Below, one piece after another: positions 2,646 to 62,100 of a DNA stretch of 64,000 nucleotides. This DNA comes from Notamacropus eugenii (Eukaryota; Chordata; Mammalia; Diprotodontia; Macropodidae). Position 1 is the stretch's first letter. Each line of letters opens with the position of its first letter. Location: the NCBI RefSeq assembly GCF_028372415.1, contig NC_092879.1:71158412-71222411 (forward strand). The letters are read 5' to 3'. The translations under genes were made by a program, and so were the position numbers. The notes beneath the pieces are model-generated. The model saw nothing but the letters and a program-made list of their open reading frames with translations, did no database searches and was not told where the DNA came from.

Positions 2646-2669
2646 ATGAGTGAAAGAAAACCCCGAAAG
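2646..2669 (+). CDS. Exon 1, coding part: start codon and residues 1-8 (MSERKPRK)
   Basis: ATG AGT GAA AGA AAA CCC CGA AAG is followed by a GTATGG donor and ends in phase 0, which fits exon 2. The ATG has A at -3 and is the first ATG after a TATA-like box at 2471; I see none between 2481 and 2646. An in-frame TGA just upstream closes the frame. The exon probably includes 5' UTR from about 2500. Homology cannot support it because CLOCK and NPAS2 do not have this segment. An alternative is that exons 1 and 2 are 5' UTR and translation starts at 11791. Confidence 0.6.
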
Positions 2670-5600
2670 GTATGGTGGGCTTTTGGGGACTGCAAGGGAG
2701 ATTGGACCCATTTTTCAATTGGGGCACCTGGTGGGAGTAAAATCTGTTCTACACTTCTAGTATTTTCCCTGCTTCCCCCAATGTACAGTATTGGGAAAAA
2801 TTCATTCTTTAGCAATGGACCCTGTCCTTTCCCCTACCCCTGTGTACTTTGAAGGAGCAGAGAAAGAGGTGACCCTGGTTACAAGTCTCATTGTGGTCCC
2901 CCAGACCTTGCTTTGAATGTTTGTTTTGTTTGTTTTTTAATGCTGTTAATAAATTGAATATGTATTGCATTTTTGACTAAATGTATAAGTTTGTAATTTG
3001 AGATCTAGAGAGGGGAAATGGTCTCATGGGTGATGAAATTGTCCTAATTTTATTCTAGGTTGAAGACCAAACCAGTTAGAGAATTTTGAGAATTTGGGTA
3101 ATTTCTAAGATTATTTCAGGGTGTACCTACTAGACTGCTTTCTATTCCTGGAGATAATTAACAGTATGAACTAGTAGTAAAGAGGTATAAACATGGTTAA
3201 GCCTGGTTTTCCTTGAATTCACTTGGATGGTATTTCTCACACCCCACAAAGCTGTACTTAAAAAGTGGGGGATTAGTTTCTCATTACTTCTTTTAGAATT
3301 TAAGTTAGTGCTTTGAGATCCCCACTTACATAATTTTGCCAGGAGTCAAAGATAAGCTCTGGAGCTTGTGATTTGGTTCATTCCCCCCCTCTCCCCCCCC
3401 ACTCCCCCCCCACCCCACTGCTTTTTTCTTTTAAACAAGTGCAAGCCAAGCCCTTCACTAGTCCTGTACTGTACCACCCATCGTTGACATTGTTAAGTCA
3501 CCATATCCAGCTGCCCTTTTAATGCCCTGGGATGGCAATCCTCTGGACCTGGTTTTCTGAACTCCTCCAGAAACATGGAGCTCTCTTAACTCTGTCTCTC
3601 TTTATCTTAGTTATCAGTTTCATAGCAGCCATTTTCTTCTTGTCCTTTCCTGTCCAAAGACCATCAGCAGAGAAAATAGAAGCAAAATTAAACCTGTACA
3701 GTTAGGTCATTCCTCTGTTTTACTTTATCATTTTCCCATGTTCCCTGAGCACCGATCCCATTCCTTTGGGACCTTCTGCCTTCCCACTTTGGTTGTCTTT
3801 CATTGTCTTTGCCAAACATTGCCTATCCAGTCATGACTTCATTGTATAATGTAGGATGCTTCAGGGGGAGATGTGGGGCTTGGAAAACCTTGCTGAAATC
3901 CCACTGTCTGCAGAAAGAGTGCATGAGTTAACCATTGCAAATATTCATTTGAATTTGTCTTGAATTTGTTTCCTTTTATATATTTAATGTGTTTTAATAT
4001 TGAAATTATTATAATAATCTCCAAACAGCTAATTGAAATGTACTTTTTTTTTTCTTGAATTGAGGTTGAGAGGGAGAATCTATCTAGTACAGTTATTCAG
4101 GGATATTAGCTAGTCCAGTACAGTTAGCTCCAGGGTGAACCAAAGCCACGGTGTTCTCTAGTGAATTGTTCTGGTTTCCCCCCTCCCAGATAATAATTAA
4201 AACTGTAATAGTAATAGATAACAGATGAGCTTCTACTATGTACCAGCATTGTGCCTGACTCCAGGAATCTATTCAGTATGCCAGATTAGCAGCAGGGTAT
4301 AATAGTATGCCCACAAATAGTCCTAGGTAGTTGGTACAACTGAGTGAGGCCTTGGAACATCAGTCTAGTGGGCTTATGGACACAGTGGATCTGGAGTCAG
4401 GAAGAGCCAAGTTCAGATTTGTCCTTAGACACTTATTAGCTTTGTTGATTCTGGTCAAGTCAATGAAATGCTGTTTGTTTCAGTTTTTTCATCTGTAAAA
4501 TGGGGATAATAATAGCACCTGCCTCCCAGGGTTGTTGTGAGGATCAATTGAGATAATATTTGTAAAGATGCGTATTTAGCACAGTGCCCGGCACACAGTT
4601 TGAACTTCATAAAAGCTTGTTGTTTGAAGTAGCTGAATTCAGCAGTGAGCCTTTGACATCTTTAAATGTTGAGAATTTTGTCTGTCTAACTAGATGTGAT
4701 AGGATATGTTGTATATGAATTGTTTGACTACTTTGGTCCTTTGGTGGAAGCCAAGATAGGAGGTCATAGGAGGCTTAGGAAAAATCCCAGGGATTTGCTC
4801 AGCCAGTGTCCAGAATCGATCTTGCTCGGTCTGAGGCTTGGCTGGTTCTTGTTAGCCTTATGTCCTGGCAGTACTGAACCAGGGGGATTAAGAGGGGAGA
4901 CTTCTTTGATTATACACCTTATCTCAATTATATTTTGATTATACGTCTCATCACAATTGACCAAGCTAGCCATGTCTGAGTGATTAAATCTGAAATAAAG
5001 AAATCCAGTCGCTAATTATGAAATGATCTCATCTTCCATTCCGTTAGCCTATTTTATTCCTTTCTGTTATTTGGTCTTGACTTACGAAGGAAAAAAACTC
5101 CAGAAAATTCAAAGACCAAGACAAAAAGCCACATAAAATAGAACAAGATGAAAAACCCAAATGAGTCCCTTTCAAAGGTGATTTTGAGCCTTCCCATGCT
5201 TTTTCAGTATTTGAAAAGATGTCTTATTTTTGTGAACTTGGGCATTCTACCCATTGGCATGGCAGGGCTTTGTTCTATAGGGTGTGAGTTTCCAAAGCAT
5301 ATTACCCATACCAGCCTTATGAGGCAGGTGGTGTGGGTAAATTGGCTTTCTAGAGAGTTACCCTAGCCCCAGACAGTCACCCTTGGGTGGCCAACCTTCT
5401 GGCATGAAGCAACAGAGGCCATCCCCAGGCCTGGATATGATGCCCAGAATTACCCCAACAACAACCTGGGGATAGGAGCAGGGAGACTTTTGTGGAGGAT
5501 TCTCCTACTATCTTTAAATAATATCATATTGTGGGAGTCAGGGCTTTTGAAGCTTTTTCACTGTTCAATTTAAAATTGTACTGCTCTAATTAAATATCAG

Positions 5601-8600
5601 TTTGCATGTAGCAGTTCTGAGCACTTAGGAATATCCTATAGTATTGACCCACGACCTCTTTTAGGTTTTTAATGCCTTTTCTCTGGGTAATTTCTGTCTG
5701 ATTGTTTTCTCTTGGAAGAGATTAGCACATGGAGGGTGACTGGAGTGAGTTTATTGTTGGGAATCCTTTTTTCCCAGTAGGAGAAAAAGTTGTTCAGGGA
5801 GTTACCAATCTGAGTGCTTACTAGGGGCAAGAGCTAAGGGGCTTTGAAGTAGAAGATACAGCTCTTTCTTTTTTTTTTTTTTTTTATTTTGTAATGTTTA
5901 ACAGTCACTGCCATACAATTGTGATTTTATCCCCCCCACCTACCCCCCACTCCCCCCCTCCCTCCCCACGACTGCATACAGTTCTGTATAGATTCTACAT
6001 ATACTTTCCTATTGAGTATATTTTCACTATAGTCATGCTATGTAGTCAGACTAAGATAAATGAAAGAAATCGTATAACAAATCAGAACATGATACACAAA
6101 CACATACACATACACAAACATGATCTGCTACAATATGTGAGTGACTTCCATATTTCTCTCTCTGAGTGTGGCAGGCATTTTGCCTTGAGATCCTCCATTG
6201 GGATTTTTTTTTTTTTTTTTTGGTAAGAAGTTCTTGTGTTATTACAAAAATCTAAGTCTACCAGAAAAAACTCTCACACACTGTGGTTGTTGCTGTGCAT
6301 AAAGTTCTCCTGGTTCTGCTCCTTTCACTCAGCATCAGGTCATATAAGTCCTTCCAGGCCTCTCTGAAGTCTTCTTGTTCATCATTTCTTATGGCACAAT
6401 AGTACTCCATTACATTCATATACCATAATTTATTCAGCCATTCCCCAATTGATGGACATCCCCTTGACTTCCAGTTTTTGGCAACTACATAGAGTGCTGC
6501 TATAAATATTTTTGTACATGTGGGACCCTTTCCCATTTTTATGATCTCTTGGGGATATAGTCCTAGTAGCGATATTGCTGGGTCAAAGGGTATGCACATT
6601 TTTGTAGCCCTTTGGGCATAGTTCCAAATTGCTCTCCAGAATGGTTGGATGCGCTCGCAGCTCCACCAACAATGAATTAGTGTTCCAACTCTCCCGATAC
6701 AGCTCTTTCTTACCCGTGAATTGCTTATAATCTAGTTGAGTCTAGTCACCCCCAAATTCCCAGAAGCATACTGGCAGAAGATGGGCTAATGTCCCTAAAT
6801 CAGGGATTTAAGGAGTCCATGAACCTAAGTTTGTTTGCTTTTAAAAATGGACATCTGTATTTAGTGTAATATGGGGTTTTTGTATGTTCCTACATACTTC
6901 TATTTTATGCATTTAAAATATTATTCTGGGAAGGGGCCCATAGACTTCACCAGACTGCCCAAGGGGGTCCATTGAGAAACAAGGTTAAGGACCCTTGCCC
7001 GAAATGATAGATTTGTGATTTTAGAGATACACAAATATTTTGATCACCCAAGTGATTGGCTCTGCCACTTACTACCTGTGTGACCTTAGAATAGTGACTT
7101 AACCTCTTAAGGTCTCAGTTTTCTCATCTGTAAACTAAGGGACCTAGGCTAAAATACCTCTAAGATCCCTTCCAGCTGACTCGATCGTCCTATGATTAGA
7201 AAGGTATGCCACAAATCTGACAATTTAGTATAGGAAATATTAGTAATACACATGTATCAATCAATAAACACCTGTTAAATGCTTACTGTGTGCCAAGCGT
7301 GGTGCTAAGCAATGGGGATACAAAAGGAAGCTAAAGACAGTCCCTGTTTTTAAGGATTTTACAATCTTAAGAGGGAGACAACATATAAACAAATATAGAC
7401 AAAGAAGCCGTATACAGGATAAATAGGAAATAATTAACAGAGGAAAGGCACAGGAATTAAGAGGGGTTGGGGAAGGCTTCATATCAAAGGTGGGCTTTAT
7501 GTGGGACTTTAAAGGAAGTCAGGTGGTGCAGGGAATAGAGTGCTGGGCCTGTTCACATCTGGTTTCAGATGCCTACTAGCTGTGTGACTGGCCAAGTGAC
7601 TTAACCCTGTTTGCCTCAGTTTCCCCATCTGTAAAATGAGCTGGAGAGGGAAATGGCAAACTGCTCTAGTATCTATGGTTAAAAAAAAACTCCAAATGAG
7701 GTCATGAAAAGTCACATGTGACTGAAATGATTAAATAAGACAAAGGAAGGTGGGGAGTTTAGTAGATGAAGTGGAGGAGGGAGAATGTTCTAGGCGTGGG
7801 GGACAGCCAGAGAGATTGCCCAGAGCTGAGGGACGGAGGGTGTTTTTTATATAGCCACCAGGAGGCCAAACAAGCACATGAGCAGAAAGAATTTTTATTA
7901 ACACATAACCCTTGTTTGCTTCAGTTTCCTCATCTGTAAAATGGGGTTAACATTATCTCCTTTCCAGGTTTGTTTTGAGGGTTAAATGAGATAATATGTG
8001 TAAAGTACTTAGCACAGTGCCTGGCACATAGCAGATTCTAAAAAATGTGTACCACTACTACTGTTGCTGTTACATGCCAGCATCTTTAAAGTGCATTGTT
8101 TGTATGTGTGTACTGTCCATTCAGGGACTTGACAAGTATCTGTTAACCACATACGATCTGCAAATCACCGCTCAGGTATTGCTCTTGCTACTGTTCACAT
8201 AACTCGCTGTTTTCTTTTCTTAATAGGTACAAGACAAAGGAGTCCAAACCATGCCGCTGACTGACTTGGCAGAAAGTGAGGAGCAGGCTGCGCTGGACAT
8301 TGTCCCGGGAGCAGGCCAGGCCACCTCCATTGAGACCACACCACCAGGTAGACTTCGCAGGGACAGTGGGCACTCTGGCTCTCTGGTTTTCTGTCTTTGT
8401 CTCTCTGTTGTGTCTCTGACCGTAACCCTTTTTGTCTCTCTGGGGCCACTGCCTTTCAGTCTCCCTGACTCTGTCTCTCTCCTTCCTCCTCCTCCTCTCT
8501 CTCTGTCTCTTGTGCCATGTTCTCTCACCTCTCTCTCTCTTCTCTCACTCTCTGTCTCTCTGTTTCTCTCTTTCTCTGTCTCTCTCTTCTCTCTCACTCT

Positions 8601-8759
8601 GTCTCTGTCTCTCTCTATTTCTCTCTGTTTCTCTCTGTCTCTCTGTTTCTCTCTCTGTCTCTGTCTCTTTGTTTCTCTGTCTCTCTGTTTCTCTCTCTGT
8701 CTCTCTCTCTGTTTCTCTCTGTCTCTCTCTGTTTTTCTCTGTGTTTCTCTCTGTCTCTC

Positions 8760-8793
<34 letters not shown>

Positions 8794-11700: not shown

Positions 11701-11963
11701 AACGCTTAGTCACTACCAAGAAAATAAAAACTGAAGAACTCACCAAAATGCTCTGTTTGAATTTCAGAACCTAGTTGCTCAAAGGAAGTGATGGATGAAG
11801 AAGAAAAGGACAGGCTGAAGAGGTAAGAGAAACTTCCATAGCCTTTTCATTCATGAGATTGCTGCTTGGGGCTGGAGGCCTATCTAGCCAGTCCAAAGAG
11901 CTCAGACAGATTGAGGTTCATGGATCAACAAGTAAATACTGCTTAGATGTATGCGTGTGCATG

Positions 11964-12007
<44 letters not shown>

Positions 12008-15000
12008 TAGTTCAGCCTTTTTTCTAAATTTCTTTGGTGCTGGCTTTGCTCTGGCTCTCTCTTTAATCATTCCTAGGGTATAGTGATGGCTAGATGGAGT
12101 GTGTTGTGATATGATCTTTCGGTGGCTGCTAAGACAACATGATGGAATGGAGGCCATGAAATGGGTTCCAGGAAATTTGGAATGTAGGCTATGGTATGTT
12201 AGGGAATGAATGGATAACATGGATGGCAGTTGCTCCAATGTTACCCTTCCCCCACCCCAAGATGAGTCATCACCTTATTCCTGTCCCTTCGCCTCCCTTC
12301 CCCGCCAGTGCCTTCTCTCTGAATCCCTAGCACCACAGTTGCTGGTGACACCATTGTATTTTCTTTAACCAGGGCATCCCGGAACAGGTCAGAAAAGAGA
12401 AGGAGAGATCAGTTCAATGTTCTCATTCAAGAGCTTTGCAGCATGCTTCAGGGGCAAGGGCAGCCCGTCAAGATGGATAAGGCTACCATATTACAGAAGA
12501 CCATTGACTTTTTACACAAGCAGAAAGGTATCTTTGGGGGTGCCTGGTGGTTTTCCATTTTCAATATGAAAATAGATCCTAGTCAGTTTCGTTATGTCAG
12601 TCATTCTCCCAGGAGTATATTCCGGGGGGGGGGGGGGGGGGGGGAAGCAGTCAGGGCTGGGAGGCCTCTGATGGTCTTGTCCAGCTCTTAGCATCTAGTA
12701 TTCTCGGATGCAGCAGTTTGTTTGTGACAGGTGCTTAAATGTCATTGTAATCAATGCAAAAGAAGAAAAATAGAGTGGAAATAATTAGAAGCGTAACTGG
12801 GCAAAATCTCATCTCTGCTGCTGCCACAACCTTCCACTTGTATTTATCTAAGAGGTAGTAATGGAATAATTAGGTTAGACTACAAGCGATTTTGGGGATT
12901 TTAATCCTTTGTTAAAAGGGCAGCATGGGGGAACTATTAATTTAGTGGTACATTTAGAGGTAAGCAGAATTGAACACTGAAAAGGTCACAGAATCTTTCT
13001 CCAGTGAGACATTTAACAAGTGTTGTTGGGGGGAATACATTATTCTTTGCTTCTAAAGACAAGGAAATGCAGTGAATTGGAAAGTTGGGGTTTTAGTCCT
13101 GTCCCCTGTCACTGTCATCCTGTGACCTGGATAAGTCACTTCACTCCTGTGAGTCTCAGTTTCCTTTTCTGTAAAGTGAAAAGATTGAACTAGATGGTTT
13201 CTATAGAGCCTTCTAGCTCTTACCATTCCATGATACTCTGAAATTGACAGTACATGTACAAGGGACATTTCCTGGGTCAGAATTCCAAGACCATGAAAAC
13301 GTACAATTTGTTTCTGGTTTCCCCATTTATGTAGGTAACTTTTATAGCCAGGTAATAGCTGTTGGGCTGCAATTTTGATTGGGTATTTTCTGAGCCAAGG
13401 AAGTAGGGAAGTAGCCACCTAAGGGATATATTGAGGTTCACTAACATAACACTAGAGCTTGTAGGCCTGCAGACTTTTAAGTCCCTGCATGGATCAACAG
13501 TAGTGGCTCAACCAGAGGCAAGAGCTCAGGCCCATATTTTACCACCTCTACGGGATTTGGGGATGATGAAGTGGTCAGCATACATTCTGGCCAAATCACT
13601 GACAGAAAGTACCCTTTTTAGACCAGATGTACCCACTTAATACACTGTGGCTTTAAGCACTGATTCCTTTGCTACAATGGAGTAAGCCCAAGTTTGGTGT
13701 CAACGGCCCTGGGTTTGACTGCTGGCTCAGTTACTTCAACTTTTTGGACCACAGTTTCTTCACCTTTAAAATTAGGGGGTTGAACTAAAGGATCTTTGAC
13801 ACCCCTTCGGGCCTTAAATCCATGATCCCCTTTTCCTTAAAGTAGAGCTGCAGGCAGGGGGGCTGTTTTTGAATGTGTTTAATGTAATGCCAGTTTGTTT
13901 TTGGTGCGGTTGGCTAAGCTGCTATAAGAAAAATTTTTTTTAATCTGACCCCACGATTTCATGAGGGAAGGAATTCTCCCTCCCAGTGAGGAAACTCCTT
14001 CTCCTATTACACATGGGCACCTCTCTGCAACTTAAGGATCTTAGAACTTGTGGCACCAAAAAGTTAAGTGCCCAGGGTCACATAAACAGTGTAAGTCAGA
14101 GGCAGGACTTGAACCCAAATCCTCCTGTCTGAGGCTGGTTCACTATTCCAGTGGTCACTATTCACTGTCAGGAAAAGGAACACAGGAAAATTTGCAGCTA
14201 AGGTGTCTTTTTAAAAAGCAGTTGCTAATTGTTACTAGTAAATAAGTAACCTACCCATATCTTCTGTAGGCTTGGGCCATGTACCAAAGGGGAGGGATCT
14301 ACATGCCTCCTTACTCTGGTACTTCCAGACTCCATGCTTTGGTTTGTGTGTGGATACCTTTTATTGTCCTCTGGAGCTTCTGGAGTCAAAAGAGGTGGTT
14401 AGTTGGTGGGTACACTCTTGGTGTGAACTGGCCAAGCTTGGGCTCTCCAGGCATAGCCTTCAAGAACCCAACCTCAAAGAGGCATCAGGTGTGTGGGGGA
14501 GGAACCTTTGTCTTCAACAAGAGTGAGAATAGGCTGAAATGCTTCCTTTGGTCAAAGCTAGACACAGGGTCAATTTAAGTACCAAACAATTAGCCACCAA
14601 TAAAACCTCAGTATGATTTCAGAGGATGCTCTGCTCCAAAATGGATTGTAACTTTGGAAAAAAAGAGATATTCCCTATAGTCATTTCAATGTCTTCTCTT
14701 TCCTTGTTTGTTTCTCCTTTAAAGAAAAGGAAAGCCAGGCACAAGCTGCTAGTGCCAGAGGGGCCTGGAAACCATCAATTCTTAGCAATGAGGAATTTAC
14801 ACAGTTGATGTTTGAGGTAAGAAACCTTCTAAAATGTGTGTGCATTGTACATGGAAGATATACAATAGACCTTGTCACTGGGATAGGAACTGGAAATTTC
14901 AGCCAAGTTGTGAGGAGTTTAGTGATTACCTAGGGGATTCAATCAGTGTACAGAGCCAGCCTTGATCATGTAAACTCACAGATCCTCCTTGGGCTCCCAA

Positions 15001-18000: not shown

Positions 18001-21000
18001 CGGGGATCAGGACGCTCATAGGGGCAAAGGACTTGCGGGTAGCTCAAGCACTAACTTCCTCACCCTTATCTGCACAGTCTGCAGAACTCACAGTACCTGG
18101 AAAGGCCAAAGCCCAGGACTGCCTTACCACCCTGTGGCTCTGCTTTCTGTTGCTTCTTGGTCTGGTCTCCACCTCCAGTCCTCTGGTTCCCTGCCATACC
18201 CATGTCTTCTCACGTCAGCTCTCCCATCATTGCGCCCACCTCTCTCCAGCAGTGTCCCATCTCTCCCTCCTACCAAAGCTTGGAAGTATCCATCGTTTAC
18301 CATGCTGCTGCCAGTGCCATTGTCACTGACTCCAGGAGCAACTGTGGTCAAGAGAGAGCTAGAGTTTTTAGTAGGATAGCCAGAGTCAACCAGCCACTGG
18401 GCTAATCCCCTTAACTCCAGCTCTTGGATTTTAGTCAGGCCTGAAGCTTTGCCTGCTTTATACATAAAAGGGACCTTCTGATTCGTTCCTGATGGGTCCC
18501 CAGCCTACTTTCTATGTAATTAAAACTAGGGGAAAAACCTAATAACTTTTGTATATGTTTTCATTCATGTTTCTAGTCAATCAATCAATCAATCAATCAC
18601 CAAGCATTTTTTAAGCACTTACTAGATGCCACAGTTCTAGGCACTGGGGGATACAGGGACAAAGAATGAAGTGAGTTCTGTTTACATTATTTCTAATCTT
18701 TTTCCCAGTTCCTGTTGTGTTCCTTTCACCCGCCCCCACCCCCTCCCCTAGCTACCCCCTAGAATCGAGTCTTGCACATGAGAGGCCTCATGAAAGTACT
18801 AGAAACCCTGGGAGGGGAGGGGCCAAGGTGGCAATAGCCCTGAGGAGGCACAGAGCTGAAGTCCCATGTTCATGTCTCTTTTCTACAAGAAATAAAGCTT
18901 AACATGGTATTGTTGTATTAACATTTGGGTGGTACTGTTTTCTTTCTCCAATAGGCACTGGATGAGTTTCTGATTGCCCTGACCACTGAGGGAATAATTA
19001 TTTATGTGTCTAATAATGTCACTTCTCTCCTGGGCCATATACCGGTAAGTTCCAACACCCATCTGAGACTTTCTCAACCTGTTCTTTTGGGCTCTTTATT
19101 TTTAGCTGGATGAAGCAGATGATTGAGAAGAGAAGGTGTTTAACATAGGCATACCATGTGCCCCTGTTCTGACAAGTGATCTCCATTGTTGAAGGGTTTG
19201 TTTAAAGCAGTCTATATAACTGAGGTGGGTCTAGGAAGTAATGAGACTGGGCAGGCTCACTTGGTCTCTGATGGCCATTTTTGAAGAGTGTCCCTATAGC
19301 ATGTATGACACAGCAGTGATGTTGTGGGACTGGATGGATCATCCCAAGGGAACTCTTTTGAAAGGACCACAATGTCCACTTAGATAAAACCTGCTTGTTA
19401 AAACAGCTCCAACAAAGCACTAATCATATTACTTTAGAGCAGGGAGTCTTTGCCCAAGATCTGTGAATTTGTATTATTTTGATTATCTATTGCCATCTAA
19501 TTGCTTTCCTTTGTAACACTATATATTTTATTTTATGTATTTAAAATCATGATCCTGGAGGAGGGGAGGGAGTCCTAGACTTCCCTTGACTGCCAAAGAG
19601 GTCCATGACCCAAAAAAGGTTAAGAATCCCTGCTTTGGAGACACACTTCCCACATGAAGGGACAATTCATTAAACAATAAAAGACTGGATTTGTTTATTG
19701 CCAGGTCATGGCAGCCATTTCCAGGTGTAATTAGCTACTTGTCTTTTTCTGTTGAAGGGCAAATTATGTTCTCGTTTAGAAACTTAGAGAAGCAATTACA
19801 TGGTTAAGCACAAATACTGGCTCTCGGGCAACAGCAGCTGGAAAGGGGTAGCCAGTCTCTTCAACAAGTGTCTGTGAAAGGGCACATGACCATTATTCTT
19901 TTAGTTGCCAGCCCTGGCAGCCTCTGGTTGGCTGGAAGGGCTTCCAGTGTGGTGCCTTTGCTAGACATTGCCCGCCTCTCTACATTCTAGCAGCTTGGCC
20001 ACAAGCACCTTCAGCCATAGCAACCCAGGAAAGGGAGAGTAGACACATCCTCATAAAAACTGTCAAATATAAACATAGCACATTCTCCCTGCAGCCCAGC
20101 TAATTGGGATGGTGATTTTAGCCCTAACTGGCTGGTGTCCCATCGCTGCCTATTCCCCACTCTTGCCTCGGGTTTCTTCTGACACTTGGCAACTGCTCAC
20201 TCCAGACTTCAGAGGAATGCTTGGAGTCTCCAATGGCACATCTCATCACGAGGGATTGGAGGCAAAGACAAATCGGGAGTTGCCTATAGTCTTTAAGGCC
20301 TGTGAGAACAGCCCCCTTGGACACCCTCAGTGCTTTCCTGCATTTTTCCCTTTCCTAAGAAATGCTGGAATTTCCTCTCAAGTTTCTTTTTTAAAGAAGT
20401 GGTTTCCATTATTTGAATCCGTTTATACCCCTAGGATCCTAAGAACACTTGAAAGAGCTCTAATTTTTTTTTTATCCTATTGAGTGGGTATAACTCAAGG
20501 TCCTCCTAGATCTACTTCATATGGAAAACGTGAGCCATAGTAGCCCAGATTCGACAGCAACCCAATCCCAAAGGAATACCCGCAGTCTTTTGTTGGGCCA
20601 CCGTGGGTGCATTGGGTGCATTAAGCTTAAAGTAAGGGGATTATTGATCAGGTTTAAGTGGGTTGGTGATTCTGTAATCGACTAACCCTGGAAAGTCTGT
20701 TCGACCCGAATGTCTTCATTGTAATGGCATTTGTTGTTGTCCCTTTATGTGTTAGGAGTCATACAGACTCAACTTTCAAAAGACCTACCCCTCCCCCCCC
20801 ACTTGATCCTGCACTTGGGGTACACTGCCACCAGGTGGCAGTGAGGTCCTTGGTAATATGGTGCAAACTACTAGGCTTAAACCATAAGCACCCTCAACTG
20901 AGAAATGAGCATCGTTTTCTCATCCCCTGTTTTGAAAGTCAAACTATAACTTTTTATTAAAATGACTAAATTTAAATATTGAAGTTGAAAGTCATTGGAC

Positions 21001-24000: not shown

Positions 24001-26371
24001 TTTTCCAATAAAGTAAAAAAAAAAGCCAAACATTATGAAGAACAAAATTAAACAAAACAGAGGTATTTTCATTGAGGTCAGAAACACTAACAAAAGCTAT
24101 GGCATTATTTTTATAACTCAATAAGATGATAATTTTTCAAACTTGTCCACTAATTCAGATTTTATTGCCTTTCCCCCTCCCCACCCCCCCAGCAAGCTTT
24201 TCACTTGGGCAGGCTAAACTGCATATGAGCTAGTCCATAGCTGATTAAGGGACTACAGCTCTAGGATTCTATTGGTACCCCACTGATGTTGGAAGGCCTC
24301 CAGTGTATCAAGTGGACCCCCTCTGGGGAACTTCCTCTCTGGAGGCATATAGGGCAGACAGGTATGGATGAGTTGCTTCATTGGAGGGCATATCCACAGA
24401 TCCATTGGGATATTGGAGTAACCATAAATAATTAATGCTACTTTATTCAAATGACAAATCCATCTTAATTTTGGACTCATCCTTAAAACAAACTATTTAG
24501 TTCCAAAGGATACTTCGTACATTATTTTCTTGTGTGTTTAAAAAAAACATTGCCAAGACTTGCATCCTAGTTAATTTACCAAAGAGCTGCCATATCCTGA
24601 CTGTGTTGTAACAAAACATGTATATGACAGGCTTTTCTTTTATATCAGTCAGAGCTGGTGCACAAGAATATATTAACCCTTCTCCCGGAGCAAGAGCACA
24701 GTGAAGTCTTCAAGGTACTCTCTCCGCTGACAATACTGCCAGCCCCTGTCTCTGCTGATTTTCTAAATGGTAAGTGTTTTGATTTGAAGGGGAAGGTAGC
24801 AATCAGAGAGGAATATAAGAAGCAGTAAGAGCCAGTACCTATAATGAGCTCATGGCACAAACATTGATCAAAATACTGACATTAGAGGATCAGCTCCTAA
24901 CACCATCATATCAGTCCTAAGGGGTGATAGTCATAACTGCTCATATGAATTACATTGGGCTGGCTAGTGTACAGGAATATTGGAAAAGTTTAAAAGGGAT
25001 CGAGTGCTTTGTGGTCTTATAAGAGGTGGTAAAAAGACAAAAAAGAAATCCTAGATGGAAGGGGTAGTTGTTGGAAGGTTAAAGTGCCTCAATAGCTACT
25101 TTGAAAGCAATGCGTAACCAACCAAAAAGGATTCTGTGAACTTAGAGCCTTGCCGGGTAAAAACTTCACTGAAAAGAAGAGGCAGAAACCTTTTCAGTCC
25201 CGAGTGTGCCACTATGAGAAATAAGTAATGACTGGGGGCCCACTGGCTGGCCTAAAAACATAGACAGGGAAGTAGGAGAAAGGATAGAAGGGAGAAAGAA
25301 GGAAAGGAAGGGATGAGGAGGAACCGTACAGGCCCTCTCTTATTCTAGCTTCTCTGTTCCAATTTGTGCTCCTCAGGAGGGCCTTTACTCCTTGGGCATT
25401 TGCTTGCTGGCTGAAGAGGCTCAGTGCCAGGCTCATCTTAGGGCATGAAGGTCACTCTCGGGTGGTTACAAGTAACGCTGCCAGGGGAACACCAGCTGTT
25501 CAATCAATTAATCAATCAACAAGCTTTTCTTAAGTGCCTACTGTATTCCAGGCACTGTTTCTTGGTGCTGGGGAGACAAGCACAAAGAGAGAAAAGGTTG
25601 GATGGGAGAGATGTTTTGAAGGGAGAAATGACAAGATTTGGCGAGTTTGGGGGTGGTTCTTTGGCCCTCCTCTCTCATAAGAGTCTAAGGCACTAGATTC
25701 TTTAAGCTTTTACAAGGTTTTGTGGTCAAAAGCTGGAAATGTACCGTCATTAATATGTGGGTAGATAAAAGGAGCTGGGATATCTGGCATCCAGAATTAA
25801 TGGACGGAACTCCCACTATGGAAACATCTTCCACTATGACCCTTCTGTAACTTAGTAGGGAAGCCCTAAGAAGCTGCCTGAGACACACACACGGGAAATG
25901 ACTTGCCCAGGGTCTTACCACTAGTAAGTGTCAGAGGTGGAATTTTCACTGCGATCGTTCCTGACTCTAAGCCCAGACTCTCCTGTATGCCACAGAGCCT
26001 CTACAATGAACGGGTGACTTTTCATTACTCTACCATTGTTATCCATTTCAAATATTACATTTTTTCTTATAAAAGAGGTGATGTAGTAGAAAGAACGCTG
26101 GTTTGGAAGTCTTCTTTCCCCATTCTGCCATTTATGGTCTTAGGAAAGTTATTTCACCTTGTTGGGGCCTAGTTTCCTCATCTGTGAAATGAATGGGTAT
26201 GGACAAGACCATGTCCAGGCTTTTCTAGCACTAAGACTCAGCGATTCTGTTATAGATTGGTTTTCCTCCTCTTCTCCCATCTCCACTCATTTCTTCGGTG
26301 ATTTAGATAATTAATGGCACATAATTCTCTTGATGATGGTGTCAGTGAATGATAACAATGAATAATCTCTC

Positions 26372-47400: not shown

Positions 47401-50071
47401 GACACCAAGAGAGGGAAATGTTTTTTCTCAAGGTCAGAAATTGAAACATTAGTGGACCTGTGTGGGAGGCAGGAAATGTGGATCAGATAAGGGAAAAGGA
47501 CATTATCATATATGAGTCAGCAAGGTGACACGGTACATGAAGTGCCTGGCCTGGAGTCAGGAAGACCTCAGTTCAGATTGGTCCAGAGACTCACTAGCTG
47601 TGTGACCCTGAGCAAGTCATTTAACTTGCTCTGTTTTACCTTGATCCACTGGAGAAAGAAATGGCAAACCAAACCCCAATGGACCAACTAAATGCCTAAT
47701 CAGTGGTAACACTGTAGTAAGGGAGCATGTCTTGATCTCCTATATATGTGTATAATAGACATTAAAATGTCCCCAACTTGATGATGATTAAAGATGATTG
47801 ATGATGATGGTCTTAATAACACCTAGCACTTTTTTTTTAGCACTTTAAGGTTTGCTAAGTGCATTTGAGCCCACAGTAACCTTGGAGGAGGGTAGGTGTT
47901 ATTAATATCTCCATTTTGCAGATGAGGTAACTTTAGACAAACAGCGATGAAGTGACTTGTCCTGGGTCCTACAGCCAATAAGTGTCTGAGGCCAGATTTG
48001 AACTCAGGTTTTCCAAACTCCAGGCCAGGCGCACTGAGCATTTCCCTATCCGGCTACCTCTCACATGTTAACATTCTACTCTATAACTGGATGTGTGGAC
48101 AGAAATGACGTAAGCTCACACTGAGACTTCTGACACGTTTGACCCAGAAGTCATCTTGGTTCCACCTCCTGATTTAACAGATGAGGAAACTGAGGGGTTT
48201 TGTATCAGAGGCCTCTTTCCCCGCCTCTAGCTCTCTTTCCATCTCATAGCCCTGTGGTCGGTCCTCTTCTTATTCTTTCAAGTGCAGTCACATGGCTGAT
48301 TCTCCACGCTCTCAGGATTATAAAGTCAGAAGTCACACATGTGAATCAGTCTCCTTATTTCCTAGTCATTTGAGTTTGCTCAGGCAAAGATTAACTTGAG
48401 AATATGAACAGATTTTTCCTCTTTTTTCACATATACAGCGACTCCGCTGGTCTGTTCCTTTAAAATATATGCTATTTCCCCTGCTAAAACATAAGCCTCC
48501 AGAGGGCAGGCTGTTTCCTTTTTGTCCTGGTGTACAGCAGGTACTTCCTAGGGAGGTTTCTTTTAAAAGGGTCACTTGTTACTGACTTGAATCAACAAGG
48601 CATAAAGATGGGAAACTTGGCCTACTTGGGCCAATCTTGTTCTCAAGAAGGATTTGAGTCCACTCTATTCAGAAATAAGTGCATTTTCCTGTGTGTTTTC
48701 TTAATTTAAGAGTAAGTTTTTAAGTTTCTAAGGGTATGTTTTTAAGTTTTAAGTGTGGAGGCAACAATTTTGACAAAACTCTGACTGATGGAGTTCAGGT
48801 CACAAACTTAGATCGCAGGTCATCCAATGCTGGACGAAAAAGTGATAGTATAAGATTTGATATGATACTGGATGCTTTTTAAAAATAACTTGTGAATAAC
48901 TCTCAGAGTTGGGTCTTAAATGAATGAAACAGCATTTATTAAGTGCTGACTATGTGGCAAGCCCTGTACTGTACGAGTAGAAAGATTGAGATAGTCTCTG
49001 GCCTTGAGAAGCTCTCAGTTATAACTGAGAAAGACAACGTATAAAAAAAGTTCAGCTGTACATACAACAAAAAGGCCCAGGTGTGCCAAGGAGTCTTAGG
49101 CTAAAGGGAACCCCAAATACTGGCTGTTTCTTGATGTCAGGAAACCACCATCTGCAAAAGAAGACCTGATAATGAAATGGGGTTACAGATTCACATTTTG
49201 ATGGTTACAACCCAGACTCAGTTCAGAACTTTGTTTTTCCTCCAGGTATGTTTTGACACGAAATGTTGATTTCAGTGTCTCCTTGCTTTTAATGAATGAG
49301 TTTCTTCCTGGGTGATTGAGATTGGTCACAAATACATGTTGGGCTATTGTGTAATCTGGAAATTTGTTCTGCATAATGAATGTCTTCAGTGTTAGCTGCT
49401 TCCTCAGGCAGTAGGCCAAACATGTTCAAGTAGTGACTCACCTTCCAGTTGAATTCAATCTCCACATATTAAGCAGGAGTAAAGCATGCAACACCAACCT
49501 TCTTCTGAAGGAACCATTTGGAAGAGGCCAGTGCCTGTGATGGGCGTTGGGGGAAGGGTGAAGCTTGAAATGTTTATCTTGGATCGGCCAATAAGAGACT
49601 GAGATTTCATAGCCACCTAAGTTAGATCGACTCATTTTCTTTCTCTTTGGTCCCAGGGCCCCACCCATCATAGGCTACCTACCTTTTGAGGTGCTGGGAA
49701 CATCCGGCTATGACTATTACCACACCGATGACTTGGAGCCTCTCACAAGATGCCATGAACAATGTAAGTTTCCACCTTTCGAGTCTCCAAAGGAAATACT
49801 AATGAGTGCCCTTAGGTTCTTCTTTCCTTGTGTGATGTCTTTGTGAAACTCTTTAGTAGTGCTAAAAATGAAAGCACTGAACTAGCCTTTGCTGAATCAT
49901 TTGTTCAGAATTACTGTTAAATGTTATGGTATGTTTAGTGAGTGAGATGGTACTTTAGGGAGGGGCTAGTTTGGTTTTCTCCAAATTTTTTTAATTGATT
50001 GATTGATGGTTTTCTGATACTCTATGTTGCTTATAGAATAGTCATGTCCTAATTACCAGCACACATGCACA

Positions 50072-50139
<68 letters not shown>

Positions 50140-53100: not shown

Positions 53101-56100
53101 ATGAGATTTGAGAGGGAAGGTCATTACCCATTGGGGACTCAGAGGAGGCTTTTTGGAGGAGACAACCCTTGAATTGGACTTTGAAGGATGTGGTGGGAGG
53201 CAGGAAAGCATTTCAGGCAAAGGGAACATTGTGAGACAAGAGGCAGAGGTGAAAGAGCTCAGAGTCTTTTGGAAGGAGAGAAAAGTCCAATTTGGTGGGA
53301 ACATGAAGTATGTAGAAAGTATGAGATAGGACTGGAAAGATGTGGTGGCACCAGATTGTGGCAATCCTTGAGTGACAGGATGAAGAGTTTGCATTTTATT
53401 TGATTTACAGTAGGGAGCTACAGAAGATTTTTGAATGAGGTAATAGCATGACCAGATCTATGCATGAAAAGATTAGTCTTCCATCAGTTTGAACTCTGGA
53501 TTGGTGGGGGTGGAGAGGACAGCAAGGACAGCCTGTTAGAAGGCTATTTCTATGATCTAAGCAGGTGATGAGTAGGGACTGGTATAAGATAGTAGCAGTA
53601 GAGAGGGATGGAGAGGAGAGGAATGGAGAATAATTGCCGAATACATAAATTCACATTATGCAAATGCTACTTCAAAGAATTCTGAAAGAAATCCACATTC
53701 CAAAAAAACACCTATGTGAACTTTACCCTACTGTGCTCTCTCTACTCCTGCCCCTTGGCTAGGCATTCTGGGCCTCTCGCGATCTTCCCCCCAAAAACAA
53801 CTAAAACAAAAATCTCTCCAAGTGAAAGCATCATAATGGAAGCTGGGAAAGACTGCCCTCAATGACTGATCAGAGGCTTAAGACTTTCTGAGCTGAGGGA
53901 GAGACTTTTACCCTGATCCACCCATCCCAACCTGAGTGCCTGTCTTCCATTGGTACGCTCCCGAACCCCATGTCTTTCCCCAGCCCTGCCTGTTGCCCAT
54001 CTTCTCCTGTCTGTATCTCTTGTCTGGCTCCCATGTGTCTGTCTCCACCCCGTTCTTCCTCTTGTTCAGGTCAACACCAGCCTAGTTGCAGGGGTGGGAC
54101 TTTCCTACCTCCCTCCCTTTCCATGTCTGCAGACAAATTCATATTACATAAAAATCATTTTAAGTATAGGTCTGTGGAATAATCCACTTAGGTAAAGTGA
54201 GAACTGTCTCTCTCTGTGTGTGATAGAGAATGTGGGGAAAAAAGAGTGACAGGAATGAGATGAGGTCAATAAAGGAAGACTATTGGGGTGCTTGAAATGA
54301 ATTTAGAAGGAAATGAAGGACATAGTTTGAGGGTAAGAAATTCAAAGGACATTTCATATAGGAATTTCATGGAAAACCCACTTCTAGTAAGCTGGTAAAT
54401 TAGAGTTTGGTGACCCTTTGAGAGACTGACTCCCAAAGTTCTGGCACCCAAGCTGGCAGATAGGAAGAACATTGGCATGAGAGGAAACTTTGCTTCTGAT
54501 ACCAACTGGACTGCCCACTTATTGTGGGAAAGCCATTTGCTCCTTTGAGTCTCAGTTCGTTTCTCTGTAAAATGAATAGTTTGAAATCTAGTTTTTCTCT
54601 TAAGTTCCTTCCAAGATTTTCCATTATAGAAATCTTTGAGATTCAGTCACTTGTGGAAATAGAAATGACTTTTCAAGGTCCTCCGTACAGCTTGGTGAAT
54701 CCAGTTGCCAGTAGGAAGAGCTACAGTTGAATTTCCCAGCCCAAGGTGACTTTGAGCATCCTTGCATGGGGGTAGTGGAAGATGGGGCAATCCAGGGCCA
54801 TTCTACTTTGATTTTTGCCATAAGTCACTATCGTGAGTGGACAGTGAACATTCTTACCTGTCTCTTCTGCGGGTGAGCATCTCAGCTGTAGGTTAAACAA
54901 GGAAAGGCTTCTTGGATTATATTTCTGCTACCTTCAACTTCAGCCAGAAATAAATGCTCAAAACACCCTTAGATTTGTATTCTGTTAACGTAGGAAAGGA
55001 CAGTGCTCGATTGACATCTTTTGATATTTACAGTTCTCTGTATATAGCAAGTAAAAGTAAATGGGTTTTTTTTGTGCATCCAAAACAACCTTACATTAAA
55101 GTAATTTAACACTCCTGAGGACTCTGCCAATGGATAGTAAATTTTAAACTTCAGCACAAGATACAGTGTGATGTCACAAAAAAAGTGGGAGGTTTAGAGT
55201 CCTCGAAGAACTTGGGTCTGAACCCCTTCAATCACCTCTTCCATGTGTTACCTTGCAGGAAGTCACATCCCTTCTCTGGGCCTCAGTTTCTTCTTTTGTA
55301 GAATGATTGGATTTCCTTAGGTCATCTCCATGGTTCCTTCCACCTCCAAAGCTAGGATTGGAGTTGTATAAAATTCCAGTCTAAGATGAGAAGTGTATAA
55401 AGTAGGTAAGGACTATGAAGAGCTCAATTCAAATGTACCATCTTGTGATCTCTCTCTCTCTCTCTTTTTTTCTTTTTTGAAACCAAGTGATGCAGTGTGG
55501 AAAAGGAAAGTCCTGTTATTATCGGTTCCTGACGAAAGGCCAGCAGTGGATTTGGTTGCAGACTCAGTATTACATCACTTATCACCAGTGGAATTCCAAA
55601 CCTGAATTCATTGTTTGCACACACACTGTAGTTAGGTAGGAAATTTGACTTCATGCTTTTAAGAAAAAAACCCAACCTCTGTGTTTGTCTATTCACTTTT
55701 CCCTTTTGGTTAGAAGGTAAATATTTTACCATCTGTATGGTCTCAACTGTAAAACTAATTCATGGAAGAACTTGGAAAATTGGCTTGTCAGACTTGGCTT
55801 TCACTTCTCGATGTCCAGGTCATTGGAATGCAAGTCCACCATAGCTGCAGCTGTTAATGCTCCGTTGGTGTGAACAACAGTGTCACGTGGAGGCATTCGT
55901 TGTATCCATTGTCTCTTTCCCTGAAATGATTTTGATATTGACTATAGGGCTACTATACCCCAAGAAAGATCTAGAGATTTTCCTTCTTTTCTTTTCTTTT
56001 GTGTTTTGTACAGAGAGTAGTTACTTTCAATTTATAAGCAGCCTTTAGGCTAAGGATATATCCATCTCGATCCATTTGGTGCAAGCTTTCTGATTGAATT

Positions 56101-59100
56101 ACTGGTCACTTCTGTCGAGGAACTGATCATTTTCATTTTTTAAAACCCAGCTGTTTGCATTTGCAGATCCCTATGTACAAGCCATATTAAGATTTCCATG
56201 GCTTTGGGGTTTATGTAAGGGTCTATTAGGGATTAATTCCATCGAAAGTTATGTTTACATGATGCTGATACATGCAATCAGATCTTCAGGTCAGTAAGAA
56301 ATGCATGTAATTGATTTGGTTGACATGTGTAAACAGAGTATCCAGAAAACTTACTTAATTGACTAGATATTTTAATGCCATGTAAATAATTACTTCTGAA
56401 ATACAATATACTTTTAAAAGACCCAAATATATGTACATCTATATGTATAATCAAACTGCCTTCATATTTTGAAAATAAGAAATATATGAATTCAGTCAAA
56501 TAGAATTAAGACTAGTGGTCTTGAAAATGTCGAATGGAAAATTTCCATTGTCCTTCCCTTTTTGAATGATCAGGTCCCTCCCTTTTCATTTCTTGGCTTC
56601 TGTCTCCATCAGGGGACTCACATATGTCACTGCACTGCTAGCTTCCTCATTTATGACCTTATTTTTTATGTATGTCCTAACAGTCTCTGAAGTATACATT
56701 CTCATCCTTGGAAACCACAGGGATTTTTGCTCTCTGATATTCACCAGAAAACTCCTCTAGAATGGAAATGCGTTACTGCAATGGTTCCTTCTCAGTTAGG
56801 AAACTCGTATTTATGCTTGCAACACTCCCCTCCAAACAACTTTAAAATAATAAATACTGCTTGAATGAGCCTGGGACTAGTGGGAAATAAAGTGTCTCCC
56901 AAGAAGATGATGCTCGAATCTTACTGCAGCCATGGGGATTCTTGTTTCTGAGGCCATGAAAATGAATTGCAAATGCACCAAAGAAGGGAGGGTTTTTAGA
57001 ATTACAGTAAAACCAAATAAAATTTGGGCTGAAGTAGTTGGGCTTTTAAAGACTGAGTAATGGAGAGTTCCCCCACATGCCATCTGTTAGCACAATCAGG
57101 GAGGCAGGACAGCTGATCTGTGAGCGGGAAGACAGCAGCAGCTGCTGTCATGAGCCTAATGAGGGTACCGGCCTCTGCCCCAATCCAAGGCTGGCTCTTG
57201 GTGGCTTAGCAAAGCAGAGATTGGCCTCGCCAGGGAGCCGCTGTTCCCTAACCCAGCCTCTGTATCGTATCATTGATGATTTCTAAGACAGTCAGATGAG
57301 GCCCAGTCTTGGGAGAGCAGTGAGGCTGTGAGGAGTCTAGTTCCCTGGATAATTTTCCCTGTGCGTTCCTTGAGAGTGCCAAGCAGTGGGCTGTGCAATA
57401 GCCTAAACCACATAGAATGAAGAGCCTTGGGCACAGTGGCTGTGTGCTTGGCAGTCTCTTCTGTGCCCTTCCCTATTCAGATGCTGCCTCTGATGCTTGC
57501 CCACCAGCTTGGTGACCATGGCCAAGTCACTTCTGTTTTCTTCTCTGGAAACTAGAAAAGTACCTCTCCCATGGTTGTTGTGAGGCACAAAGGAGAATGA
57601 TATCTCGGTGTCAGATTGTTGTGACTGTATTTGGGAATAAGGGTAAACTCTGAAGGATCACTGAGAAAAGTTGACTCTCTTTTCTTTTGTCTAGTCATTC
57701 CCAGATTCAGTCAGAAAGAAGAAAAGAACTTGGGCTTGAAGTGCCATCGGTAGCAGAAACAGTCACTGTGCCCTTCAGGGTATGTAGATGGAAAAGCACA
57801 AAGACTTTTCCAGGGTTATAGTTTCACACCCTTTCTGGTGGTGGTTCATGGGTAATTATTCATTCCACTTCCCATTCCCGACCCCCCAGCTGTGTGTTTC
57901 TTTGTACTAGACCAAGCCTGATGACATAGGAATCCAAACCAAAGGCATTTAATGAAATAGCAAGGAATTGAATTGGGTATTGAGCTCTCTTGGCACTCAT
58001 TCTCAAATGGCTACCATGTTCAGCATGTCTCCTGCACATGCTAGTGGCATCTCTATGAACTCTCCTTTGTCCCCAACATAGCAAGAGAAGGACATGTCAG
58101 TTCACCCCCAGATAGGGGCTAGAGAAATGGTCGTGGCTCTTAGGCGTAACACCCAGGGAGCAATGTGGAGATCACGTTTGACGTTACTTGGTATAATAAT
58201 AGTAGTGGTCTCATGTGCACTGACCCCTTTCTGGGCTGAAGCCTATGGTTCTTCCTGATTCCCTCAGTTGTTAATGTCTTCCTTTAAAATAACTGTGTTT
58301 ATTTTGTTTCTATCTATCAACAACATGTTCATCTCCAGTAGGGTGGAAGCTGTCTGAGGGCAGGCACTATCTCTCTTCTGTAGCTGTATCCCCAGCACAT
58401 GGGACAGTGCCTAGTGTACTGCATGTGCTTAATAAATGTTTGTTGGTTGAGGTCTCTCTTGCTGCACATGGACAAAGCCAGTCTTTTTCCCTTTTGTCAC
58501 TTTTATGTCTCACGTGCTTGAAGGATGCTTACCTACCCAGAGCCCTTGGGTGGGCAACATCGCTATGCTGCAGAATCCACAGTGCCTTCTAAGAGGGTAT
58601 CCAAAGAGAATTTCCTTCAGTAAGGAAGGCTTTCTCAGCTCTAGCATTATGGGAAGAGGGTGCATGCATAGGCACTCCCAATTATTTCAGAATAGACCCT
58701 TAAGTAGCTTAATACTTCATTAAGCCAGAATATGTCCAAACATTTCTTTTTAAGGCTTTCTTCCTCATAAATTAATGTCTTTTACTTGCTGCTTTGGTCC
58801 GAGTGAGCTCATCAAATTTCTTGAGCTCCATGTAGTAAAAATCAGTAAGAACTAGGTCCTTTATTTCACATGTAAAGTTCTATAGGTTGGAATTTGTTGG
58901 CTAATAACTCTCTTTTTGAGAAAATTTGGAATCTTTACCTGTCTCTTGGGCTTCTCAGGGCAAGTCTGGTCTTGCTACATGATGACTGGAGGCTCCTGGT
59001 AAGGACAGCCACTTTCCCCCAAACTCCCCAATTTATTTATTTTTTTACATTTTTTCAATTACATATGAACAAAATTGAACATTTAAAAAAAATTTTGAGT

Positions 59101-62100
59101 TCCAAATTCTTCCCCTCCCTCTCCCATATTTGAAAAGACAAACAATTTGATATAGACTATACATGTGCAGTCATAAAAAACATTTCCCTATTAGCCATTT
59201 TGCAAAAGAAAACAGATTTTACAAACCCAGGAATAGGAAATGATAAATAATAATAGTAAGGAAGGTACAAAGGTATGCTTCAGTCTGCATCCAGACTCCA
59301 TTTAGACTGCAACAGTTCTTTCTCAGGAGGTAGATAGTATTTTTTTTTTTTTACCATAAGTCCTTTGGAAATAAAAGACAGCTAATTTTGATAGCAATTC
59401 AACAAACATCTATTAAGCATCTTCTGTACAGAGGAGGTATATATTCATTACCTTGGAAAGTAGACTATTTGGATAAGACATGGTGCCCAGCTTCAGGGAA
59501 CTTATACAGAATCTCTTGAGGAACGGCCTTGATCACAATTCTCCTATGCATTTGCAGAAGTTTCTCTATTTAATCTGGAGCCCCATGGATGCCCCTTGTC
59601 TAAGGCCACGCCCATCCAAATACCTTTAGGATGAAAAAACTCAACCCTAATTTTAGATAGTCTGTGCAAACTTCATTTTCCCTGTTCCAGATGACTTTTA
59701 CCAAGTCAGGGTGAGTTAAAACAGAGGTGTCGAGCAGGCATCCACAGCACAGTGAAGCCTGAACTAGATTAAAATGTAATTGGAAAATATTTAACAAAAT
59801 AAAGTACAGTAAAACATAGATAATGTTACATTGTCAAACTAAGTCAGTATGTGCCTGGCCTGCAGGGATCCTTCCGTAGGGATTAGTGGCTCCCTTTCTA
59901 GTTGAGTCTGATACCACTGAGCTAAAACATCTCTTAAGCAGAAATGTTGAAAAAGCATGTGATTGCCTCCCTGGCCACAATTTCCCTTAGTTCAGAGGTT
60001 CTTCACCTCATTTGGCATCATAGTCCCCTTGGATGCCTGGGAAAGCATATGTCTCCCTCCTTGGGAACATGTTTTTAGATGTATAAAATATAGATGATGA
60101 GAAAGGAAACCAGTTACATTGACATACTGCTATCAGAGTATCACAAAACAAATAAAAACCAGCTGCTTCACACACTCCAGCTTAAGACCTCTCGGACTAC
60201 ATGAATTGGGAAAAGCCTTGTACTCCAATTCTGCATTACATATGAATTTATTCAATTGAACATACATTTCTTAAGCACCTACTCCGTGCAGAATACCATG
60301 GTAGTCTGTCTAAAACCCCCAAATGATAAATCCAACCTTGTTACTCTGGCTGGGGAGCATGAGCTGGCACATGTGAGCCATCCTAGGAAGCAGAGCCCTT
60401 TGGTTGACTTGGCCCAGTCTTACTGTCTTCCTTCTCATCCTCTCACCTAAACCTGTGGGGTTCAGCACGCAGCTACCCTTACCATTTTTTTCACCACCAT
60501 CCTTGGCTGCTGCTGGAGTATCCCCACTCAGATCCCATTGCAAGGAATCGGTTTTGTTCGACCTTTAGACTTGAACCAATTTATTTATTGTGATGTTGTC
60601 AAAGGTTCCGTATTGGCATTGTATTTGAGCTTATTTTGAGAACACGTAGTTTATGATGCCCATGATCTCTGCCCTTTGTCACATTAAATCATTTTAGGTG
60701 CCAGACGAGAATGAGTGCTTCCATGGTAGGCGCTAATTTCCAAGGTTGGGTAAATGTAGTGTGTGTGAAAAGAGCCCCGCTTTGGGCGGACTGGTATGTT
60801 GAGTTTGGAGGGTGTTTTAGTCCTTTGAAGTGAAATGTTTTATATTGTTTTCTCTTTCTCTTGAACAAACAAAAATACAGAGTTCTGACAGTTCCATGGA
60901 TGTTTCCGAGTGTGGAAGAAGCCCGGATGTGAGGAGGAAGACACCATCAGGGTCATCCCATGGCCTCTGCAAACCATCCCTTACGGGCCTGTCCAGTTCA
61001 GCATGTACGTATACTACAAACTTGGTACCTATGGTGTTGCCCAAGAAAACAGAATTTACAAAGTAAGAGCCATCACAAGGAAAATGCTCCTGTAAATGCT
61101 ATCCTGTTTGACCATCAAAGCTCTCATGAATTTCCCTAATCTTTAGGTTTTGAGAATTGTTCCTGGGCCGCCAAACCCACGCTGAAAATTGTTTTATCAG
61201 TGATTAAAATGTTAGCAAATGTAATGTTTTATCAGCTGTTCCTTTCACTTGCATCTGATAAGGATTTATAGTCTTTCTTACAGTTCTCTGGAGGAATAGG
61301 ATGAGTTCTTCAGTTTTCTCCATTGTACCAGTTATAGGTTTTGTTTTTAATTGTTGATGTGAAGTTGCTTTATTTCTTTCTTTGTTTTTTCCCAAGAAAT
61401 TGCATTTGAGAAGGATTGCTGACAACCTGGAGAGTTTATTCATCCACTTCAGAAATAGTAGAAGTGTAGGGGACATCATTGTGCCTAATCCTGTGCAATT
61501 CCAGTGGGGCATCGCAAGGTTATCCTGGGCAGGTGTAACTCCTTGGGCACTGATGCCTTTGGACAAGTTGGTTCAGTTTTTTCTTCTGGGATTTTATAAC
61601 CCCCGAATTTGACCTCCCAGCATTTACTAGTTTTAATTGTAGTTAGGTGGGAGAAGGAGCGCATGACTTCTTTTAGGGAGAAGGGGTGCGAAAAGAAATA
61701 GTCATCACATGGGCCTCTGCTCCTGGTACCACTCCATCTCTATTGGCTACATGTGTCAGAAGAGGGCAGGCAGGCAGGCTCAGCTACTGTCAGAATTTTG
61801 GGATGGTGAGGCCAGATATCACCTCCTAGAGGACCTTGACTCTACTGTCACGGAATCCTAGTGAGTAGGGGCTAGCAAGTGATGGCAGTAGAAGAGAGGG
61901 GTGGACTGGTTCCGAATGGCACAAGGCTAATATGGAGACGCTTGTCACCTAGAGCTTTGATACATGTTGGTCGGAGAGCCAGGTAGGTATGAGACTGAGG
62001 GAAAAGAAGGAGGGTTAGAGCTTCCATCTGGGGCTGCTTGGCAGTGGTGGCCCAGGTGCAGGGGATAGCCTAGCACAGGAGTGGGGAGCCTACAACCTTG

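Follow-up and report, generated by a model that had tools for sequence, protein, structure and literature searches.

The tammar wallaby PASD1 locus: an intact third CLOCK/NPAS2 paralogue and probable full-length counterpart of a eutherian repressor gene

Human PASD1 (CT63, PAS domain containing repressor 1) is described in a review as a cancer/testis repressor that binds the CLOCK:BMAL1 pair and inhibits it (PMC5412454), and tables of another study list it as a cancer/testis gene with a ratio of nonsynonymous to synonymous substitution rates (dN/dS) above 1 between human and chimpanzee (PMC1890293). The predicted proteins considered here already stand in public databases. A partial search of the literature found no account of a full-length PASD1 outside the eutherians, and absence from print is not claimed. 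The present analysis concerns a stretch of 64,000 nucleotides from Notamacropus eugenii (the window; C25:71158412-71222411), the plus strand of which carries a gene with a CLOCK-type domain core. C25 is 103,022,542 bases long, the length also recorded for the contig of the predicted tammar protein P0124 described below. The window holds exons 1–15 of an intact tammar PASD1, a third CLOCK/NPAS2 paralogue, and we consider it probable that its product serves as a CLOCK-class partner and that its eutherian counterpart switched to repression. The analysis adds the finding that the gene of marsupials is, judged from sequence comparison, the full-length form of a gene that was disarmed in eutherians, the eutherian version retaining a relic of the basic helix-loop-helix (bHLH) domain.

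The exons were located independently by tblastn with human CLOCK and NPAS2, the exon-sized matches following one another in order along the plus strand. A first joining of the matches at GT/AG sites produced a 441-residue product without stops. The spliced core was identical at 422 of 422 residues to P0124, a predicted tammar protein of 893 residues with the database label "NPAS2-like", and the exons were then refined against this protein. The resulting 15 exons, at 2646–63911, splice to residues 1–551 of P0124 with full identity (551/551); GT and AG are present at each internal junction, the phases are consistent and no stops occur. The start given in the initial annotation, 2646, coincides to the base with the ATG of exon 1, and the fourteen in-frame exons listed there correspond to exons 1–14, with consistent phases, no stop and identity to P0124. 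The end of its span, 61062, had to be abandoned: exon 14 extended to that position and joined to exon 15 gives two stops, the true donor is at 61004, and exon 15 (63694–63911) had been missed, the gene continuing downstream.

The remaining 342 C-terminal residues of P0124, including the coiled coil, match six blocks located 1.4–16.6 kb past the end of the window, and the gene extends intact approximately 17 kb beyond it. The coding part of tammar PASD1 is thus complete, with an open frame, and spans about 78 kb between the ATG and the final codon. Its fast evolution in the tammar would be expected of a decaying or dead gene in which the frame has stayed open by chance, but the 15 stop-free exons in the window, the intact rest of the protein downstream, eight marsupial predictions covering the core and the conservation of the contact residues (see below) all speak against decay. 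On the intact frame, the marsupial predictions and the kept residues this explanation was rejected as very improbable.

In a protein search with the 441-residue product (best 120 of 1,020 matches), PASD1 of Petaurus (87%) and a CLOCK-like protein of Sminthopsis (77%) stood first; behind them came proteins of birds and reptiles under the labels PASD1, NPAS2-like or CLOCK, for the most part at 62–74%. A search with the Petaurus protein (best 120 of 2,281) added koala, wombat, brushtail possum, tammar, Antechinus, Tasmanian devil and platypus. Seven further marsupial orthologues were found, and six of them carry the name PASD1. The tree of 45 sequences placed the tammar product in a marsupial clade of eight (support 100/100), adjoining the other tetrapod PASD1s. 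When rooted with Drosophila CLK, the tree divided the vertebrate proteins into three groups: tetrapod NPAS2 (98/93), CLOCK (100/100) and a third group with PASD1. In the third group, tetrapod and coelacanth PASD1 (98/91) are accompanied by teleost "NPAS2" proteins, which join at 100/95, and by proteins of cartilaginous fishes (99/98). The weakest point of the tree is its root, the branch to the outgroup being long (1.51).

The label of P0124, together with a PAS-B domain that shares 85% identity with human NPAS2 and CLOCK, would suit a fast-evolving orthologue of either of these genes. However, holding the marsupials together with NPAS2 or with CLOCK in PAS-A was rejected by the approximately unbiased (AU) test (p 0.0002 and 3e-5, respectively), and both genes are found elsewhere in the tammar genome. 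CLOCK lies at C23:106.85 Mb, NPAS2 lies at C15:409.09 Mb, and both loci have bHLH and PAS-B exons of their own. The tammar genome thus has CLOCK, NPAS2 and PASD1 as three separate genes. The initial annotation had proposed a third CLOCK/NPAS2-type paralogue that is neither CLOCK nor NPAS2, and had named a position inside the clade of either gene, with no other copy in the genome, as the outcome that would refute it; that outcome was looked for and not found, the product forming part of a clade of its own and the other two loci being present. With the trees, the additional loci and the loop insertion described next, orthology to NPAS2 or CLOCK is refuted and its probability negligible.

The bHLH loop of the tammar protein, QGQGQPV, has seven residues (pattern QGxGxPx), two more than the loop of CLOCK and NPAS2. 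Of 146 rows from tetrapods and coelacanth, 144 had a seven-residue loop, the pattern not being found in the other two, and a five-residue loop was seen in all 19 CLOCK and all six NPAS2 rows, in three cartilaginous-fish rows and in tammar CLOCK and NPAS2. The loop is a marker found in this analysis and not a published definition. The rows, which were grouped by their nearest anchor on a FastTree tree, are not independent, as they include isoforms, close species and the tammar twice; they come from searches started with PASD1, and true fish NPAS2 may be under-sampled. Orthologues with the full core are present in other marsupials, platypus, birds, reptiles, amphibians and coelacanth. A duplicate of CLOCK or NPAS2 restricted to marsupials would explain the long marsupial branch but not the same loop and core in all these other lineages, and with orthologues outside the marsupials it is refuted, leaving it next to no probability. 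For the same reason the earlier idea of a new partner "in this lineage" was given up: the gene is instead an orthologue of PASD1, a known mammalian gene, found with the full core in the lineages just named. On the combined evidence of tree and loop, the gene in the window is assigned as the tammar orthologue of PASD1, apart from CLOCK and NPAS2.

The seven-residue loop was also found in all 38 teleost rows (P0050, P0058, P0072, P0073, P0075, P0096 and 32 further ones), which are mostly labelled NPAS2. In the tree the teleost "NPAS2" proteins sit in the PASD1 clade, and joining six of them with tetrapod NPAS2 was rejected (AU p 2e-5). The fish gene called npas2 may be PASD1. The tree fits the 2004 description of human PASD1, which gives zebrafish NPAS2 as the closest relative besides the mouse homologue (PMC2364759). 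The placement questions the name NPAS2 for the sampled fish genes, which matters for the reading of fish clock genetics.

When human PASD1 was used as the query (best 120 of 274 matches), 60 eutherian rows were obtained (P0206–P0265), none with a precomputed HLH domain. The best non-eutherian matches came from birds and reptiles, under the labels CLOCK, NPAS2-like or PASD1, and all non-eutherian matches listed belonged to the PASD1 group except one fish row of the teleost group. The 15 eutherians sampled grouped together in the PAS-A tree, next to the tetrapod PASD1s and at the end of a very long branch. Holding the eutherians together with the marsupials raised the log-likelihood by 0.99 (p 0.567). 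The bHLH is more decisive than PAS-A on this relationship.

At least 40 residues precede PAS-A in 38 of the 60 eutherian rows, several near-identical dog-family records being among the 38, and the 22 shorter models may reflect annotation or isoform choice. A bHLH profile of non-eutherian PASD1 recognised 34 of the 38 N-termini (E ≤0.001) with up to 57.2 bits, and the NPAS2 and CLOCK profiles 28 each, with maxima of 30.7 and 35.9 bits. Among the 1,807 scored shuffles (of 1,900), the highest score was 7.6 bits with the PASD1 profile and 9.5 and 10.7 bits with those of NPAS2 and CLOCK. The recognised relic retains the HGYP-type loop. Its basic region, which could be aligned in 35 of the 60 rows, has kept R39 in none, R47 in one (Tamandua) and E43 in 34; two of the aligned rows, P0264 and P0265, were not recognised by the profile and are possibly misaligned. 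Residues 9–50 of the Tamandua protein (P0261), with R47 kept and R39 lost, matched Pfam HLH at 23.4 bits, above the cut-off of 20.7, and would represent an in-between state of bHLH decay; the wolf and human PASD1 records showed no Pfam HLH. Beyond PAS-A, an alignable PAS-B was found in none of the 15 eutherian rows shown, and an alignable coiled coil in 14 of them (not Ictidomys). By these comparisons eutherian PASD1 carries a bHLH relic, with the marsupial gene as the full-length form of the same gene.

The tammar protein has bHLH, PAS-A and PAS-B complete and in that order, as had been annotated initially, and Pfam HLH, PAS, PAS_11 and PAS_3 all exceed their cut-offs; the CLOCK-type coiled coil lies past the window. 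Comparison by phmmer with solved CLOCK chains gave E-values of 2.5e-159 (8osj) and 1.3e-154 (4f3l), and a chance likeness is therefore excluded. R39, E43, R47, W284, Y310, H360, Q361 and W362 (CLOCK numbering), known as contact residues from work on CLOCK:BMAL1 and CRY, are kept in the tammar and in all eight marsupial and all 16 other PASD1 rows. Most likely, to the extent that function can be read from sequence, tammar PASD1 would be a CLOCK-type partner of BMAL1 at E-boxes, and the non-DNA-binding repressor would occur only in eutherians. Pairing with BMAL1 would take place through the bHLH and both PAS domains, R39, E43 and R47 would read the E-boxes, and CRY could hold the protein through the HQW loop of PAS-B. 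The protein may thus play the part of a CLOCK-class partner, and germ cells may be its main site, as for human PASD1. In eutherians this gene would have lost DNA reading with the decay of its bHLH, and also PAS-B, while PAS-A and mostly the coiled coil were retained, so that the partner would have become the repressor known from humans.

Between platypus and pigeon PASD1 there are no differences in the 62 aligned positions of the bHLH, 10 in 179 of PAS-A and two in 120 of PAS-B, and between tammar and platypus the numbers are 12/62, 67/178 and 16/120. PASD1 looks tightly constrained as far as the early mammals; its evolution looks quicker in marsupials and, as seen in PAS-A, much quicker still in eutherians. 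Several observations weigh against a CLOCK-like partner in the tammar. PAS-A is only 62% identical to that of platypus, the marsupial stem branch has 0.33 changes per site, and the tammar end branch (0.097) is the longest of the eight marsupials sampled (Petaurus 0.006). V315 has changed to T and F104 to I, and function may already be drifting; marsupial PASD1 may indeed have shifted in function already. With PAS-A alone, grouping eutherian PASD1 with NPAS2 or CLOCK was not rejected (AU p 0.098 and 0.101). An AlphaFold2 model of P0124 from a 50-row alignment had a predicted local distance difference test score (pLDDT) of 49.4 and a predicted template modelling score of 0.36, with pLDDT of 25–51 in the residue blocks within 301–410, and was not used as evidence.

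The long marsupial branches, that of the tammar above all, the low PAS-A identity and the two substitutions, together with the retained coiled coil and the inhibition of CLOCK:BMAL1 that the review attributes to human PASD1 (PMC5412454), would also fit a protein that was already a repressor in marsupials, pairing with BMAL1 or with CLOCK:BMAL1 and lowering output despite its intact bHLH. The E-box residues and the whole core are nevertheless kept in all eight marsupial rows, which a repressor acting by contact only would not need, and tammar PAS-B is still 87% identical to that of platypus. An early repressor is accordingly rated unlikely, though well ahead of the alternatives considered above, and the CLOCK-class partner is preferred.

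A wider reading, put forward tentatively and with less confidence than the partner role itself, is that PASD1 is the third ancestral CLOCK gene of vertebrates, that it still works with BMAL1 in marsupials and other non-eutherians, fish "npas2" being its orthologue, and that eutherians switched it from activator to repressor by bHLH decay and PAS-B loss, with PAS-A and the coiled coil kept, the wallaby preserving the state just before the switch. If marsupial PASD1 is a complete CLOCK-type factor and the eutherian bHLH a relic, the repressor could be understood as an activator that was disarmed, and the transition from activator to repressor could be placed through a comparison of proteins from marsupials, xenarthrans and other eutherians.

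The coordinates of the exons are given in Table 1.

Table 1. Coding exons of tammar PASD1 within the window (positions counted from the first nucleotide of the window).
Feature	Position	Strand	Content and support
Exon 1	2646..2669	+	ATG, MSERKPRK; identical to P0124 residues 1–8
Exon 2	8227..8347	+	N-terminal extension; identical to P0124; 60–68% to koala, wombat, brushtail possum
Exon 3	11768..11822	+	matches start of NPAS2 by tblastn; P0124 match
Exon 4	12373..12527	+	bHLH with seven-residue PASD1-type loop; PF00010 42.9 bits, cut-off 20.7
Exon 5	14725..14816	+	linker and PAS-A start; tblastn and P0124 match
Exon 6	18955..19044	+	PAS-A; tblastn, Pfam and P0124 match
Exon 7	24649..24769	+	PAS-A; tblastn and P0124 match
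Exon 8	26649..26759	+	PAS-A; tblastn and P0124 match
Exon 9	39993..40111	+	PAS-A end; tblastn and P0124 match
Exon 10	41710..41792	+	PAS-B start; tblastn, Pfam and P0124 match
Exon 11	49657..49763	+	PAS-B; tblastn, Pfam and P0124 match
Exon 12	55488..55635	+	PAS-B with HQW loop; 92% to human CLOCK; P0124 match
Exon 13	57695..57779	+	directly after PAS-B; tblastn and P0124 match
Exon 14	60881..61004	+	P0124 match
Exon 15	63694..63911	+	polyserine exon; gene continues beyond window

Within exon 15 a GCA trinucleotide repeat of approximately 33 units (63798–63897) is read as a serine-rich tract, the length of which varies among marsupials. Between exons 14 and 15, positions 61516–61626 are 65% similar to residues 386–420 of a Sminthopsis model (P0002) and contain a stop in the tammar, because of which they were left out of the exon count; the stretch could be conserved non-coding DNA or an exon that was lost, or the model could be in error. 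No CpG-rich start was seen, the observed/expected CpG ratio being 0.05–0.25 across the first 6 kb. An Rfam scan of the window gave no matches at the gathering threshold. On the minus strand a long open frame is present at 6258–6731, by resemblance a putative fragment of L1 ORF2.

Among the neighbouring genes, a two-exon VMA21 was found at C25:70.89 Mb, approximately 270 kb upstream of PASD1 exon 1 and on the same strand; VMA21 is a neighbour of PASD1 also in human, and its position here supports the assignment to PASD1. Downstream, 28 kb past the last PASD1 coding block, one stretch (L029:4468–4923, C25:71266879–71267334) showed a weak match to PRRG3 (E 0.008, 22%) with a transmembrane-like segment; in human, PRRG3 lies downstream of PASD1. 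No Gla motif was found near it in the five stretches scanned, and the match, being weak, was not counted as synteny. In chicken, PASD1 stands between SLC25A43 and GPR50, followed by MAMLD1, in a tabulation of chromosome 4 genes with differential expression (PMC9911055). Human PASD1 is listed on X in a table of PMC1890293, and C25 may be the tammar X. Besides the VMA21 of C25, open intronless VMA21-like frames occur at C1:549.81 and 722.79 Mb (L032 and L033) and look like retrocopies. Two other loci, C23:31875513 and C4:178162987, have approximately 50% PAS-B similarity, with bHLH matches some 20–30 kb away, and are perhaps BMAL1 and BMAL2.

Compared with the described systems, tammar PASD1 shares its domain order with CLOCK, and the E-box and CRY contact residues of CLOCK are kept in it, whereas CLOCK differs in its five-residue bHLH loop, its own clade and its separate tammar gene on C23. 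The domain order is likewise that of NPAS2, with the high PAS-B identity mentioned above, and NPAS2 differs in the same loop, in its clade and in its gene on C15. The initial description of the product as CLOCK/NPAS2-like from end to end applies to the bHLH-PAS-PAS core, while the part after PAS-B is much less alike. Human PASD1 is the orthologue, and its PAS-A and coiled coil align with those of the tammar; in the human record (P0206) no bHLH could be recognised and no PAS-B aligned, and both domains are complete in the tammar. In relation to the other marsupial PASD1s, the tammar protein stands out by its end branch and by its NPAS2-like label. With the PASD1 of other marsupials, platypus, birds and reptiles, all database predictions, it shares the sequence group, the position in the tree, the loop length and the bHLH-PAS-PAS layout.

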